NCBI GenBank assembly: GCA_944324845.1
Contig: CALUXX010000002.1
Location: 168,496-232,495 of the forward strand
From: Candidatus Gastranaerophilales bacterium
GTDB taxonomy: Bacteria > Cyanobacteriota > Vampirovibrionia > Gastranaerophilales > Gastranaerophilaceae
Length of the DNA: 64,000 nt
Direction: 5' to 3'
The translations under genes were made by a program, and so were the position numbers. Positions 55,753-63,941 of the stretch are shown piece by piece. The notes beneath the pieces were generated by a model. The model had not been told where the DNA came from. It did no database searches and saw only the letters and a list, made by a program, of their open reading frames with translations. The stretch's first letter is position 1, and the number at the start of each line of letters is the position of its first letter.

Positions 55753-56280
55753 TTAAGCATTAAATGTGTATCTTGGTGCCATATCTTTGATGGCTTGATC
55801 TCTGCCTTCTCTTGCTGATTTCAATTCAGCTTCTACAGATTTACCTTGAGCTTCCAGTCTTTCTTTTTCTTGAGCAATTTTATCTTCTTCAACTTTTAAG
55901 TTACGAGTTTCGATTTGCATTGCTCTGTCACGACCTTGTTGGTATAACTGTAGCATTATCCATCGTTGCATTTGTTGATTATTTGCTGCGTTTTGAGAAT
56001 TACCCATTTGGCTTTGATACCAAGATATTGCTTGAGGTGCGTTTTGTTGCATATACAATAATGAATTGTTGTGTGCCCAAGCTAAGTAATTCATCATTCT
56101 ACCCATATTAACCCCAGGAGAACTTAATAAATCACCGATTGAAACTCCTCCGTTTGCGATTAATGCTGAGTATTGTTGTAAACTTTGTAATTTCTTCGTC
56201 AGTTGCGTTAGACGATACTCAATGTTGCTCTTTTGGTACATCAATGCGTGTACTCGAGCGGTAAATGTGAAAATACCCAT
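55753..56280 (-). CDS. Coiled-coil protein, possible paralogue of the 22161 gene
   Basis: A 175-residue soluble protein. Helical QKSNIEYRLTQLTKKLQSLQQ near 17-37 is followed by a Gly/Met/Asn-rich middle (NMGRMMNYLAWAHNN, SQMGNSQNAANNQQMQRW) and a long charged coiled coil (about 115-160, RNLKVEEDKIAQEKERLEAQ). The end is an aromatic PRYTFNA. The ends resemble the protein at 22161-22559 (QKSxI at the start, LExQ helix and an aromatic end), so the two may form a small family. No signal peptide. An A/G-rich ribosome binding site (AAGGTAGGG) lies before the ATG. Function unknown. Confidence 0.75.
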   Translation of the reverse strand: MGIFTFTARVHALMYQKSNIEYRLTQLTKKLQSLQQYSALIANGGVSIGDLLSSPGVNMGRMMNYLAWAHNNSLLYMQQNAPQAISWYQSQMGNSQNAANNQQMQRWIMLQLYQQGRDRAMQIETRNLKVEEDKIAQEKERLEAQGKSVEAELKSAREGRDQAIKDMAPRYTFNA

Positions 56281-56481: not shown

Positions 56482-57093
56482 CTAATGTTGTCTTTCTACA
56501 ACTTTATCAATCAGACCATATTCTTTTGCTTCGAATGCTGATAGATAGTGATCTCTTTCACAATCTTCTTTTACTTTTTCGAAACTTTGACCGGAATTTT
56601 CTGCCATAATTCCGATTAACATATCTTTCATTCTTAAGATTTCTTTTGCTTCAAGTTCAATATCTGTTGCTTGACCTTTAGCTCCGCCTAATGGTTGGTG
56701 AATCATTATTCTTGCGCTTGGAAGTGCCATTCTTTTTCCTTTTGTGCCTGCTGATAGCAAAAATGCTCCCATTGATGCTGCTTCACCTAAACAAATTGTT
56801 GAAACATCTGATTTTATTAGGTTCATTGTATCATATATTGCCATACCTGCTGTTATTACACCGCCAGGGCTGTTTATATATAGCATAATATCTTTTTCTG
56901 AGTTTTCACTGTCTAATAATAGTAATTGTGCAACTACAGAATTTGCTACATCATCATCAATTTCTGTTCCTAAAAAGATAATTCTTTCTCTTAATAGTCT
57001 TGAAAAGATATCAAATGAACGTTCTCCACGTGATGATGCTTCAATAACGGTTGGTACATAACCCATTATTTTCATATATGTTTCTTGATCCAT
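56482..57093 (-). CDS. clpP: ATP-dependent Clp protease proteolytic subunit
   Basis: A 203-residue serine protease that forms a 14-subunit barrel and degrades unfolded proteins fed by a Clp ATPase. The catalytic triad is S108 in [12 protein letters not shown]132 in IMIHQPLGG and D181 in [18 protein letters not shown]. The N-terminal [21 protein letters not shown] is typical. AGGAGAG lies 7 bases before the ATG. It is a lone gene without clpX next door. A protein made of Clp N-domains is encoded 3.2 kb away on the same strand. Confidence 0.96.
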
Positions 57094-58915: not shown

Positions 58916-60256
58916 TTATTGCTCCTTCTTATAAAACTTTAGCACATGAGTTGGTTTTTGTCTTGTTTTTATTTTATCACTAATACCTAAATTAATCGCC
59001 CAAAAAACTTCATTTCCCTGGGTTAAAAACAGTAGGGTATCTTTTTTGTGGTTTGGAATTTTTTTTGAATTAAGGTATTTTTTTAATTTTTGTGTGCCGT
59101 CTAAACCGAAAGGTTGTATTATATCACCATCTTTTCGAGTTCGTATTTCAAATTCAAACGGGATGTTTTTCAAATCTACGTAGGCTGTATTTTCATATTC
59201 TTTAGGAAATTTTCTAACAACTTTGTCGAATTTTTCTATTTCAAAGATATAATTTTTGTTTTCATATTTTCCCTCTTTTAGAATGTGAAAATACGGAAGC
59301 TCTTGCTTTTCATTGTTAATAATTTCGATGAATTCACTGTTTATAAAAATCCATAAGTTTTCAGTGAGAGAACAGGTTTTACCTGATTTTGAGTTTGCAT
59401 TTTCTTTCAAAAAGTCTTGAATATATAAAATTCTATTTTTGTCATATTCAAGATTATTATATAAAAACAATTTATAGATTATTCTTTTTTGTATGGAGTT
59501 TGATTGTTTAAAGAATTTTTTTGTTTGAATTTTCCCGTCTTCTGTAATTTTTTCAAGAATTTTTGTTAAATATTCTTCTACAATTTCATTTTCTTCTTTT
59601 GCAATTTCGGAAAGTGAATTTATTTTATCTATCGCATTAGGGTTAATCTTTTTTAATTCAGGAAGAATTTTGGCTCTGATATAATTCCTTTTATATTCAA
59701 TGTTTGAATTTGAGCTGTCGATATTGGGGGTAAGTTTATTGTCTTTGCAATATTTTTCAATTTCATCTCTTGAAATATTCAGCAATGGACGATAGTAAAT
59801 CTCTCGATTTTCGCAAATTCCTCTAAGTCCGCAAATTCCTGTCCCTGTGCAAATTCTATATAATAAAGTTTCCGCATTATCGTTTTTGTTGTGGGCAGTA
59901 AAGATAATATGAGTGTTAAATTTTTCACTGCATTTTTGGAAAAAGTTATATCTTGCCTCTCTTGCAGCGGTTTCTGTATGGGGAACTGAATTTGATAATT
60001 TTTCGCAATAAATTTCAATTCCTTTGTTATTACAAAATTCTACACAATTTTTCTCTTCTCTGTCGCTTTCTTCTCCTCGCCAACCGTGGTTTAGGTGGAG
60101 TGCAATAATTCTATTTTTAGGAGCAGCTTTTTTTAGTGCGTTTGCAAGACACATTGAATCATAACCTCCTGAAAAACCTATCAAGTATATAAGTTCTTCG
60201 TGGTTTAGGTCATATTTTTCTAAAAAAGATTTAATTTCCTCACTAATTTTATTCAT
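58916..60256 (-). CDS. tilS: tRNA(Ile)-lysidine synthase
   Basis: Changes the wobble C of the CAU-anticodon tRNA-Ile to lysidine so that it reads AUA, using ATP and lysine. The PP-loop SGGYDS is at residues 29-34 (Tyr where Val or Ile is usual). LHLNHGWRGEESDREE, FTAHNKNDNAETLLYRI and GICGLRGI follow. The C-terminal domain ends LKFYKKEQ, with the TilS C-terminal RxxGDxIxPFG motif (RKDGDIIQPFG) near 365. The length of 446 is normal. It begins 5 bases after the Clp_N protein's stop without a clear ribosome binding site. Confidence 0.94.
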   Translation of the reverse strand: MNKISEEIKSFLEKYDLNHEELIYLIGFSGGYDSMCLANALKKAAPKNRIIALHLNHGWRGEESDREEKNCVEFCNNKGIEIYCEKLSNSVPHTETAAREARYNFFQKCSEKFNTHIIFTAHNKNDNAETLLYRICTGTGICGLRGICENREIYYRPLLNISRDEIEKYCKDNKLTPNIDSSNSNIEYKRNYIRAKILPELKKINPNAIDKINSLSEIAKEENEIVEEYLTKILEKITEDGKIQTKKFFKQSNSIQKRIIYKLFLYNNLEYDKNRILYIQDFLKENANSKSGKTCSLTENLWIFINSEFIEIINNEKQELPYFHILKEGKYENKNYIFEIEKFDKVVRKFPKEYENTAYVDLKNIPFEFEIRTRKDGDIIQPFGLDGTQKLKKYLNSKKIPNHKKDTLLFLTQGNEVFWAINLGISDKIKTRQKPTHVLKFYKKEQ

Positions 60257-60261
60257 AATGA

Positions 60262-61623
60262 CTAAGCTTTTTTAAGGTGTTTTTTTATACCTTCTCTGAT
60301 TTCAACAACATCTGTTCCTAATAATTCAAGTGCTTGCATTGCAAGTGATTCAGGTTCTGTTGTTATTGCCCATAACAAATCTGAGGATTCAATTTTAGTT
60401 TTATTTTGTTTTTTTGCGTATTCCCAAGCTGTTTCAAGAACTCGTTTTGCTCGTTTTGTGAATACTATTTCGCTATCAAAGTATTCATTTCCGTAGCCGA
60501 TAATTTTTTCGACCATAATTCGTGCATCTTTAATATTGATTTCAAGTTCTTTTAAAACTTCAGCACCAATACCTGTTCCTTCGCTTATAATTCCAAGCAA
60601 GAACATTTCGGTCCCTACAACGCCTCTGCCGATTCTTCGAGCTTCTTGTTTTGCAAGTCGTAAAATCGTAAGTGTTTCCGGCATTTGTTTTTCTATTGGT
60701 TTGATAATACCATGAGCCAAATCATCATCGTTTATGTGCAAATCTTTGAATATATTATATGCAAGTCCTTTTTTTGTTTTTAATAATCCTAAAATCATGT
60801 GTTCAGGTAAAACTTCAGATGAACCAAGTTCTTTTGCCGTTTGAAGTGCTAAACTCATCGCCATAAATGCACTTGGTGTAAATACTATTTGGCGACCTTC
60901 ATATTCAGGGTTTCTTGTTCCGATATGGGATAGTCTTTCATCAAAAATTTCGCTTGTTATTCCAAATTGTGCAAGAATTTTTGATAAATCAGAATCTTTA
61001 TCTTCTAATATAGATGATACGATTTGCTCCGTTCCTAATATTTCATAGTTTGACGCCGATAATTTTGCGACTGCTCTTTGAAAAACTTGTGAAGATTTTT
61101 CGTTGTCAAAAAGTGTATCTGTTTCTTTTGTTAAGTTTACTTCCTGTTCTTTATTTTCATCAAGTTCAGGGTGAAGATCTTTTTTGACTTTTCTTTGCAC
61201 AAGTTTTTCAATTAGCGGTTTAGATTTTTCGATATCAAATCCAAGATTTTCCAAATATTCAGGTATTCTTGATTTTTTATCACTAATTGCTGCTAAAACA
61301 AGATGCTCATAGTGCACTGTGGAATTTCCGGATTTGTCTATTAAATCCATTGTTTCGGTTAATATCCTTTTGAAATCGTCACTGAATGGAATTGAAGAAT
61401 TCATATCGGCTTCTTCAATATTCAGGCTCATATAGATCTCTTTTGCCAATCTTTCATATGTTATATCATATGTTTTAAATATTTTGGCACAAAAACCTTT
61501 TGTTTCTTTTATTAGAGCCAACAACAAATGTTCTGATAAAACTTTATCAGAATGATCATAAATTGCAATATTTTGCGCTTCTACTATTACATTAATTGCT
61601 TTTTCAGTGAACTTTTCAAACAA
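60262..61623 (-). CDS. Protein made of three ClpC-type N domains, no ATPase
   Basis: A 453-residue cytosolic protein composed only of Clp_N-type double repeats. Unit 1 is about 1-145 (FTEKAINVIVEAQNIAIYDH, VLSEHLLLALI, VHYEHLVLAAI). Unit 2 is about 183-315 (FQRAVAKLSASNYEILGTEQ, FTPSAFMAMSLALQTAKELG, VLPEHMILGLLK). Unit 3 is about 320-450 (LAKQEARRIGRGVVGTEMFL, FTKRAKRVLETAWEYAKKQN). No Walker A, Walker B or P-loop domain follows, so it is not a ClpC unfoldase. By analogy with plastid ClpT, ClpS-type adaptors and MecA-bound ClpC, it may bind substrates, adaptors or ClpP itself. The start is TTG with AAGGA 8 bases upstream. It precedes tilS. Confidence 0.85.
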   Translation of the reverse strand: MFEKFTEKAINVIVEAQNIAIYDHSDKVLSEHLLLALIKETKGFCAKIFKTYDITYERLAKEIYMSLNIEEADMNSSIPFSDDFKRILTETMDLIDKSGNSTVHYEHLVLAAISDKKSRIPEYLENLGFDIEKSKPLIEKLVQRKVKKDLHPELDENKEQEVNLTKETDTLFDNEKSSQVFQRAVAKLSASNYEILGTEQIVSSILEDKDSDLSKILAQFGITSEIFDERLSHIGTRNPEYEGRQIVFTPSAFMAMSLALQTAKELGSSEVLPEHMILGLLKTKKGLAYNIFKDLHINDDDLAHGIIKPIEKQMPETLTILRLAKQEARRIGRGVVGTEMFLLGIISEGTGIGAEVLKELEINIKDARIMVEKIIGYGNEYFDSEIVFTKRAKRVLETAWEYAKKQNKTKIESSDLLWAITTEPESLAMQALELLGTDVVEIREGIKKHLKKA

Positions 61624-61634
61624 AACATTAATCC

Positions 61635-61928
61635 TTATTCTTCGTCTTCTATATCTTCTTCAGGTAAGCTTTCAATATAAGCTTGAACTCTTTCAAATTC
61701 ATCATCATCTTCGATAGTTTCAAAGAATACTTCGTCGCTGTCTCCGTTTTCAATCAATCTCATAAGAACTAATTCCGGTTCTTCTTCTGAGTTTTCTGAA
61801 TCAACTTCGATTAATAGCGCATATTGTTTTTCTTCAAATTCAATAATATCATACAATTCACATTTGATGATGCTGCCATCTTCATCTGTTACTTCAATAA
61901 TATTGTTGTTTTCTTCTTCGATTGCCAT
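61635..61928 (-). CDS. DUF1292 acidic protein
   Basis: A 97-residue, very acidic protein of the DUF1292 (YrzB) family. IIEVTDEDGSIIKCELYDII, FEEKQYALLIEV and ELVLMRLIENG are the conserved beta strands, and the C-terminus is almost all Asp/Glu. It often sits next to ruvX, as here (12 bases apart). I start at the ATG at 61928 with AGGAG 8 bases upstream. A longer frame starting at 61979 would overlap ruvX and lacks such a site. Function in the family is unknown. Confidence 0.86.
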   Translation of the reverse strand: MAIEEENNNIIEVTDEDGSIIKCELYDIIEFEEKQYALLIEVDSENSEEEPELVLMRLIENGDSDEVFFETIEDDDEFERVQAYIESLPEEDIEDEE

Positions 61929-61939
61929 GTCTTTTTCTC

Positions 61940-62344
61940 CTATTTTTTTCGTGCAAGGTATTGTTCCAGTATAATACAAGCACTTTCAATATCAACTAAA
62001 CCTTTATCTTTTTTAAAATCTATTTTTTTATTTCGAAGATTTTCTTCTGCTGTATCAGAAGTAAGTCTTTCATCTTCAAATATTATTTCGTAATCTTTTA
62101 TTTTTGATGCAAACTCTTCGCAGTTTTCTGCCTGAAATCCTTTTGTTCCATCCATATTAAGGGGTAAACCGATTACAATTTTTTTTACGTTATTTTCTTT
62201 TGCTATTTTATAAATAGTTTCAAGAGCTTTATCTTCAGGTTCTCTTGAGATATATGAATGACCGTTAGAAAGCATAAGAAGATAATCACTTAGTGCTATG
62301 CCTATTCTTTTTGTTCCAACATCAAGTGCCATAACTTTATACAT
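61940..62344 (-). CDS. ruvX: RuvX/YqgF Holliday-junction resolvase-like nuclease
   Basis: A 134-residue RNase H-fold nuclease. ALDVGTKRIGIALSD (catalytic Asp 8), VIGLPLNMDGTKG, FEDERLTSDTAEENL (Glu/Arg) and the late DIESACIILEQYL (final Asp pair) define the family. It acts in RNA maturation (16S 5' processing in E. coli) and possibly in recombination. It overlaps the upstream gene by 8 bases and is followed closely by the DUF1292 gene, so the three are one unit, a common arrangement. Confidence 0.94.
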   Translation of the reverse strand: MYKVMALDVGTKRIGIALSDYLLMLSNGHSYISREPEDKALETIYKIAKENNVKKIVIGLPLNMDGTKGFQAENCEEFASKIKDYEIIFEDERLTSDTAEENLRNKKIDFKKDKGLVDIESACIILEQYLARKK

Positions 62345-63941
62345 TATCTACCCACTTTTCTTCAATATACTTGATTTTATCGTTTATTTCTTCGTGCGTC
62401 AAGTCGTATGAATTGATGTTTTTATCATATTTTATGACCATTAAATATTCATAGATGCTTCGTTTTAAGATGTCTTTAAATAATTCGTCTTGTTCTTCTT
62501 CTGAAAATATAATTCCATATACAATTTCCGCTTCTTCAGATTTCCCAATGGCGTATTTTATATATGCAGAATTTAATAATTTCTTTTTCCATTCCTCTTT
62601 TTCGTTGTTATCAAACACTTTGTTTAAGTTTTCTTCAATCAATTTATCAAGATTATCCGTATTTTTTAATTGTTTTAGTAAATCAATAAATTCATCACTA
62701 TAATTAGCGTCTAAGAACCAACGTGAAGAAATTCTAAGTTCTGAAAGTTTAGAACTGATATTTCCTTTGATGTCTTTAGGAGAAACATTTTCTTTAAGTA
62801 TTTCTTCAATAGATTTTGCTTCGTAATCAATATCAATAAGAAGGTTTCTCCAGCAAATGTATTCGTATGGGAATTTCCAGTTCAAACCGGATTTCTGAAT
62901 TGTTGCAAGTTCAGCATTATATAAAAGAGTTCTAAACGCATTTGGAGAAATTTCTACAGTTTTTTCATCCCTTAAAAACCTTTCAAGAATTTTGCTATAT
63001 TCAAATTCAGAAATTTCAAAAAATCCGAAACAATCTTTTATGCCTGTTTTGATGTTAGCAACGATAGAAACAAATCGGATTTTTTTGTTTTCGGTAAGTC
63101 TTGTAAATATCATCGCAATATCGCCGTATCCATCTGGATATGTTACATAGAATTTGTGTGGCGTGCTGTTTGATAGTATTTTCGTATAAAACTCTTTGGT
63201 ATTATCAACTCTCATTCCTGAAAGTTTCAGGGTTGAAAGACTTCTTTTTATTTCTTGAAGAATTTCCCCAATGGCATAATTTTTCATCTCTTCAAGAGCG
63301 TGAAGTGCAAGTTGAGATTTTGTTTGTCCCAAAAGTTTAAGCGCTTCAATCCCCGCAGGAGAATCCGGTTCTGACATAAATACAGGGATTAAGATATTTG
63401 CCATCGCATCAGATGAAAAATCGTCACCCAAAGAATTTATAAGTGTTATTTTATCATTGGTTCTAATGGTTGCCATAAAGTCCAAAAAGTCAATTTGAAC
63501 TTCCGGGTTTATAACGGCCGTGTTTAAAAGATGTTTTGTATTTTCATCAAGCAAACTTTTTGCATCATCTTCAAGATATTCTTCGCAGGTTTCATAAGAC
63601 CAATCGGAATCTAAATCCCTTAATAGGTTAAGGATTGTTATTTTTACTTCAGTTTGCAGATTTTGAATTTTTAAAGCAGACCATAGTTTGTTGATTAATT
63701 CTTCTTTCGGAAGATAATGTTCTAACATAAAACAAATTACAGGAATTTTCTCAGGTTGAGCGTTGGTTAATTCCTTAAATAAAATCTTTGATAATATACT
63801 TTTGTCTTTTTGAGCCTCAAGCATTTCAAACTCTGCAAGGCAGTTTTGAATATCATTAACAGAATTGATTTTTTTTAACAATTCAGTAATTGCAAATTTC
63901 ATCTCAAAAGGGCTTAATTGTTTAAAGTTAGAATTTGTCAT
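62337..63941 (-). CDS. Unknown 534-residue helical protein
   Basis: A large soluble protein. The first 225 residues look like HEAT-type helical pairs (KLWSALKIQNLQTEVKITIL, AGIEALKLLGQTKSQLALHA). A mixed beta region near 245-330 has FYVTYPDGYGDIAMIFTRL, and a second helical half follows. No catalytic motif or membrane segment is visible and I do not recognise the family. It overlaps ruvX by 8 bases and starts 8 bases after the gene before it. It belongs to a unit with ruvX, the DUF1292 gene and probably the Clp_N gene and tilS. A scaffolding role is suggested only by the fold impression. Confidence 0.8.
   Translation of the reverse strand: MTNSNFKQLSPFEMKFAITELLKKINSVNDIQNCLAEFEMLEAQKDKSILSKILFKELTNAQPEKIPVICFMLEHYLPKEELINKLWSALKIQNLQTEVKITILNLLRDLDSDWSYETCEEYLEDDAKSLLDENTKHLLNTAVINPEVQIDFLDFMATIRTNDKITLINSLGDDFSSDAMANILIPVFMSEPDSPAGIEALKLLGQTKSQLALHALEEMKNYAIGEILQEIKRSLSTLKLSGMRVDNTKEFYTKILSNSTPHKFYVTYPDGYGDIAMIFTRLTENKKIRFVSIVANIKTGIKDCFGFFEISEFEYSKILERFLRDEKTVEISPNAFRTLLYNAELATIQKSGLNWKFPYEYICWRNLLIDIDYEAKSIEEILKENVSPKDIKGNISSKLSELRISSRWFLDANYSDEFIDLLKQLKNTDNLDKLIEENLNKVFDNNEKEEWKKKLLNSAYIKYAIGKSEEAEIVYGIIFSEEEQDELFKDILKRSIYEYLMVIKYDKNINSYDLTHEEINDKIKYIEEKWVDNV

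Follow-up and report, generated by a model that had tools for sequence, protein, structure and literature searches.

A near-universal three-domain Clp_N protein without an ATPase motor in Gastranaerophilales, a candidate regulator of the ClpC system

The window analyzed herein (the whole stretch of 64,000 nucleotides) contains a gene for a 453-aa protein that is predicted to be composed of three complete Clp_N domains without an AAA+ motor, and that is conserved almost throughout the order Gastranaerophilales, gut bacteria with a kinship to cyanobacteria. We tentatively regard this protein as an order-specific regulator or adaptor in the ClpC(P) system, soluble and related to the ClpC N-domain. 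ClpC is targeted by antibiotics, and adaptors, substrates, and toxic peptides act on its N-domain as the control surface. A motor-less, three-headed N-domain present near-universally in a whole order would represent a control layer not described in the literature found, and would offer a natural multivalent N-domain for testing N-domain control of ClpC. The gene and its parts are as follows.

60262..61623, minus strand: gene with a TTG start for the 453-aa protein of three Clp_N domains only, with homologues in nearly all genomes of the order
61195..61623, minus strand: domain 1 (residues 1-143), predicted Clp_N fold retaining the ClpC-type N-terminal segment MxExxTEK
61108..61194, minus strand: linker (residues 144-172), variable and of low model confidence
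61165..61173, minus strand: His-Pro-Glu motif (residues 151-153), invariant in 50 of 50 distinct homologues
60685..61107, minus strand: domain 2 (residues 173-313), predicted Clp_N domain, the most diverged of the three
60274..60684, minus strand: domain 3 (residues 314-450), the nearest to the ClpC N-domain

The open reading frame coincides exactly with that of the original prediction, and lies on the minus strand, which that prediction had left unstated. Its TTG start (61621-61623) is shared by 36 of the 50 distinct homologues (ATG in 13, GTG in one), and this codon may hold expression down.

A Pfam search of the 453-aa protein detected Clp_N (PF02861) in six half-repeat stretches with a score of 154 bits (cut-off 20.7; E 1.1e-45), and no other family exceeded its curated cut-off over the whole protein. 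The AlphaFold2 model built from 31 aligned homologues (mean pLDDT 82.7; a single-sequence run gave pLDDT 37 instead) displayed three eight-helix sets at about residues 7-142, 175-312, and 316-452, and the protein is accordingly placed in the Clp_N family by both the profile and the predicted eight-helix double-repeat fold. Neither a Walker A motif nor any AAA+ family in Pfam was found in the protein, which sets it apart from the ClpC/Hsp100 ATPases with their Walker A-containing AAA+ modules. The three tandem Clp_N domains without a P-loop or ATPase that had been proposed from the sequence were thereby confirmed, and the structure prediction of the protein alone, suggested at that time as a check, gave three Clp_N folds. 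This architecture is in agreement with a regulator acting around ClpC.

Among solved structures, the N-domain of Arabidopsis ClpC1 (5gui) was the best match to the model, with a Z score of 24.1 and an rmsd of 1.3 A over 145 residues, mostly of domain 3, and the ClpC N-domains of M. tuberculosis and B. subtilis matched near Z 23. The model of domain 1 matched the N-domains of ClpD, ClpC, Hsp104, and ClpB at Z 16-18. ClpT2 and ClpT1 ranked lower (Z 20.2 and 19.4). Their presence among the matches, together with a ClpP gene located after the gene in the closest relatives, is consistent with a ClpT-like accessory of the ClpP ring that would steer ClpP assembly or access; by this analogy of fold and local gene order such a role is possible. 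The ClpC N-domains are, however, better structural matches than ClpT, the adjacency of clpP is local as described below, and domain 1 offers no conserved ClpP-docking tripeptide, its Leu-Gly-Phe at residues 126-128 being variable. A ClpT-like role is therefore considered improbable.

The gene resides in a group of genes on the same strand, from which the following were assigned.

58916..60256, minus strand: tilS (Pfam), downstream in the conserved operon
61635..61979, minus strand: DUF1292 gene (PF06949), upstream in the conserved operon, with the likely start at an ATG near 61928
61940..62344, minus strand: ruvX (Pfam), upstream in the conserved operon
56482..57093, minus strand: clpP paralogue, 3.2 kb downstream, adjoining in close relatives only

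The DUF1292 gene directly precedes the three-domain Clp_N gene, and the gap to tilS is 5 bases. The gene at 62337-63941 is another member of the conserved operon and gave only a sub-threshold hint of HEAT repeats, with no family above cut-off. In most of the close and middling relatives examined, the HEAT-like gene, ruvX, the DUF1292 gene, the three-domain Clp_N gene, tilS, and hpt occur together, and this grouping persists down to about 48% identity of the three-domain protein, whereas a histidine kinase in the neighborhood is variable and clpP follows the gene in the closest relatives only. More distant carriers possess the gene without any of the operon genes of the window. In carriers of other families, its neighbors are a Mur ligase and NIF3; RNase Y, ymdB, and a PHP gene; a class II tRNA synthetase; or deoxyhypusine synthase and a TPR protein. 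The clpP gene that the original prediction placed 3.2 kb away is indeed present, but the ClpP cofactor suggested on that basis was not supported, since clpP adjoins in close relatives only and its proximity is thus local. Proximity to clpP was accordingly rejected as evidence of partnership, distant carriers having other neighbors. The window ClpP is one of two paralogues in the genome, and the other adjoins an open reading frame whose start resembles a ClpX zinc finger (putative clpX). After the clpP of the window, at 55753-56280, lies a 175-aa coiled-coil-like open reading frame, which recurs in close relatives and matched no family above cut-off.

No Clp gene was a conserved neighbor across the compared neighborhoods, which weighs against a regulator of ClpC and leaves room for a Clp-independent role. 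The protein might instead be a scaffold whose Clp_N folds were recruited for an unrelated partner, as in plant SMXL proteins or conflict-system fusions. This alternative is compatible with non-Clp neighbors that differ between families, with the strong divergence of the protein relative to the ClpC N-domain, and with the invariant His-Pro-Glu motif, which was absent from the 18 ClpC sequences of the order checked; Clp_N repeats are moreover known fused to other proteins and thus outside Clp machines (PMC7159879), as also in a Trichodesmium protein described below. Nevertheless, the retention of ClpC docking residues in domain 1 and the still ClpC-like domain 3 speak against it, and we consider a Clp-independent scaffold rather unlikely.

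The possibility of a pseudogene, or of a clpC damaged by frameshift or truncation, has nothing in its favor beyond the homology to the ClpC N-domain. The genome encodes two further Clp_N proteins, one ClpC-like (open frame of 838 aa) and one ClpB-like (871 aa), and two Walker A motifs were recognized in the part of the ClpC sequence read. In addition, tilS rather than an ATPase part lies directly after the gene, and full-length homologues are conserved order-wide under purifying selection. A broken clpC was thus rejected with near certainty, in line with the original prediction, which had seen no ATPase part downstream.

A search with an alignment of 23 homologues identified a homologue at E 1e-60 or better in 277 of 286 Gastranaerophilales genomes, corresponding to 256 of the 262 genomes of good quality and 47 of the 50 genera. 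The homologues were almost always single-copy and full-length, with few partial or stop-containing ones. In contrast, no full-length homologue was detected in 76 genomes from the other families of the class or in 153 from the remainder of the phylum; as counted from the result tables, no match in these genomes surpassed about 1e-50, and all of the matches listed fell within about positions 318-455, a pattern expected from the ClpC N-domain. The presence of the gene in nearly all genomes of the order, alongside a conserved ClpC, argues for a regulator of ClpC. Nine genomes of the order had no match within the limit. In one of them (G148) the sequence ends at a contig end, and another (G163) has a 143-aa open reading frame (L170) covering domain 1 only; in the remaining ones, any matches present were of the ClpC or ClpB type. 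The best case for true gene loss is G040 (8 contigs, 99% complete). In a DNA comparison with its sister G045, the flanks were too diverged, and almost all matches arose from a dispersed repeat. This repeat, of roughly 150 bp, has dozens of copies in both genomes, and one copy (L055:7566-7742) lies just upstream of the homologue in G045.

Within the genus, pN/pS was 0.13-0.17 by region of the gene, and dN/dS was 0.04 for the closest pair, ratios that are rough given that most dS values are near saturation. The three-domain Clp_N gene is under purifying selection.

The ClpS profile (PF02617) matched neither the 453-aa protein nor anything else in this genome, and ClpS was found in none of 30 genomes of the order. 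ClpS is a binder of Clp_N domains and not itself a Clp_N protein, and its listing among Clp_N-only proteins in the original prediction was therefore a slip. Replacement of a lost ClpS was also considered and rejected, since most of the sampled other families of the class likewise lack ClpS and yet do not have the three-domain protein.

In the 18 genomes having both proteins, the mean pairwise identity of the ClpC N-domain was 96%, versus 44, 51, and 62% for domains 1, 2, and 3, respectively, and 32% for the linker. Within the linker, the residues flanking the His-Pro-Glu motif are conserved at only 18-46%. Such a divergence suggests that the ligands of these domains may differ from those of ClpC, which counts against a regulator of ClpC, and it also argues against a plain decoy copying the ligand surface of the near-frozen ClpC N-domain.

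The B. subtilis numbering of the docking-residue alignment follows the ClpC N-domain sequence as we assume it to be. The resting state of S. aureus ClpC involves contacts of T7, R9, K85, and R122 with the M-domain or AAA1, that of R122 mattering little for function; the phosphoarginine sites that adaptors such as MecA use include E32 and E106 (PMC12583610). Domain 1 retains T7, R9 (as Lys), E32, K85, and E106 at 84-100%, compared with 32% over all columns, whereas R122 is lost; R9 was scored as the Lys found in the ClpC of this lineage. The column permutation gave p 0.0002 for this retention, a value obtained from related rows and uncorrected for the several residue sets tried, by a procedure that takes no account of the part T7, E32, and E106 play in the structure. 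Domains 2 and 3 exhibited no excess retention, because their N-terminal segment is lost. As T7, E32, and E106 are also common to the ClpB N-domain of this organism, part of the docking signal is a general Clp_N signature, which weakens the case for ClpC. The M-domain QEF motif, in our interpretation the partner site of E435-F436, occurs in 15 of the 18 ClpCs of the order examined, the other three being without the exact string, and it is in favor of a regulator of ClpC. Overall, the docking residues of domain 1 are suggestive, at the level of sequence, of a ClpC-facing role.

If the protein does act on ClpC, domain 1 would contact the M-domain or AAA1 surface of ClpC, replacing or standing beside the N-domain of ClpC itself, and a dedicated partner or class of substrates would be bound by domains 2 and 3 together with the His-Pro-Glu motif. 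The net outcome could be an altered choice of the proteins gripped by ClpC, or a ClpC moved out of its resting state. In the most specific version, the protein would be a trans mimic of the ClpC N-domain, in which domain 1 on the M-domain/AAA1 releases or holds the resting state and domains 2 and 3 with His-Pro-Glu sense the dedicated partner; this version is judged unlikely. The solubility of the protein, every binding event, and the direction of regulation are what we infer here. A role around ClpC as an adaptor, regulator, or competitor, the latter also raised originally with MecA/McsB-like partners, is plausible. A search for the McsB kinase domain (arginine-kinase family) gave no match, and likewise none in any control genome.

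The three domains could also serve as a decoy or guard of ClpC, sequestering toxic peptides or phage factors directed against its N-domain. Mycobacterial ClpC2, an autorepressor with one Clp_N domain behind a dimerizing N-terminal region, titrates cyclomarin from ClpC1 in this manner (PMC10030653), and three copies would provide a greater capacity. In domain 1, F80 is present in all rows, but the groove residues F2 and E89 are kept at only 63% and 11%, the segment holding F2 is missing from domains 2 and 3, and the DNA-binding part of ClpC2 has no counterpart here. Phages also encode single-domain Clp_N proteins, in favor of a guard, although its near-universality and an operon shared with ruvX and tilS give the gene the look of housekeeping rather than of niche defense. 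We consider a guard role quite unlikely. In the Mycobacterium phages concerned, Myrna (NC_011273) and Phabba (NC_054714), the matches to the three-domain protein span about 200 codons with an identity of roughly 30%, as expected from a single Clp_N-type protein, and possibly represent phage factors targeting host ClpC.

A phylogeny of 138 Clp_N domains gathered domains 1, 2, and 3 from the whole order into a single group each (support 100/99, 100/100, and 93/99), indicating that the triplication is older than the radiation of the order. Domain 3 is the nearest to ClpC by identity (41-52%); the root and exact source lie outside the resolution of this short alignment, in which some long branches meet.

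Several other Clp_N-rich proteins were encountered. In G056, from another family of the class, two neighboring genes (L060:6802-9291 and L060:4154-5458) encode 829- and 434-aa proteins consisting almost solely of Clp_N repeats by Pfam, with no AAA+ family found, the former being a larger poly-Clp_N protein than that of the window. The Trichodesmium frame L102:2410-3985, cut by a contig end, encodes two near-identical ClpC-type N-domains followed by apparent TPR repeats. These proteins resemble the one described here in having several Clp_N repeats per chain, and are distinct in their repeat numbers and fusions, with no full-length match to the alignment of the order. A 209-aa single Clp_N protein (G008, L058:4193-4822) is encoded immediately upstream of clpC and in the same orientation, and a 143-aa Clp_N frame (G470:C235:6578-6982) lies near clpC.

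Searches of the open-access literature found no report of a three-domain, motor-less Clp_N protein near-universal in a bacterial order, which is weak evidence of novelty; none of the items returned concerned Melainabacteria and ClpC, and those for Gastranaerophilales and "Clp" looked irrelevant by title and start of abstract. The fold is common to the ClpC N-domains of Arabidopsis ClpC1, B. subtilis, S. aureus, and M. tuberculosis, with identities to 5gui reaching about 47% in domain 3, whereas the present protein has three copies per chain, no AAA+ module, and domains 2 and 3 without the N-terminal docking segment. As in the case of actinobacterial ClpC2, an ATPase-less Clp_N protein stands alongside a full ClpC in the same genome, but its chain opens with Clp_N and holds three such domains, in place of one Clp_N after a dimerizing, DNA-binding N-terminal region. 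The plastid ClpT1 and ClpT2 likewise possess the Clp_N fold without an ATPase, and differ in having a single domain (PDB 4y0b, 4y0c); ClpT1 binds Hsp100 chaperones (PMC4243950), and ClpT, which according to its description occurs in algae and plants only, associates with the ClpP ring (PMC7966870). That such Clp_N-only relatives act in Clp systems favors a regulator of ClpC (PMC10030653, PMC4243950), and the best reading is that of a conserved but unstudied protein belonging to the known Clp_N-only kind exemplified by ClpC2 and ClpT.
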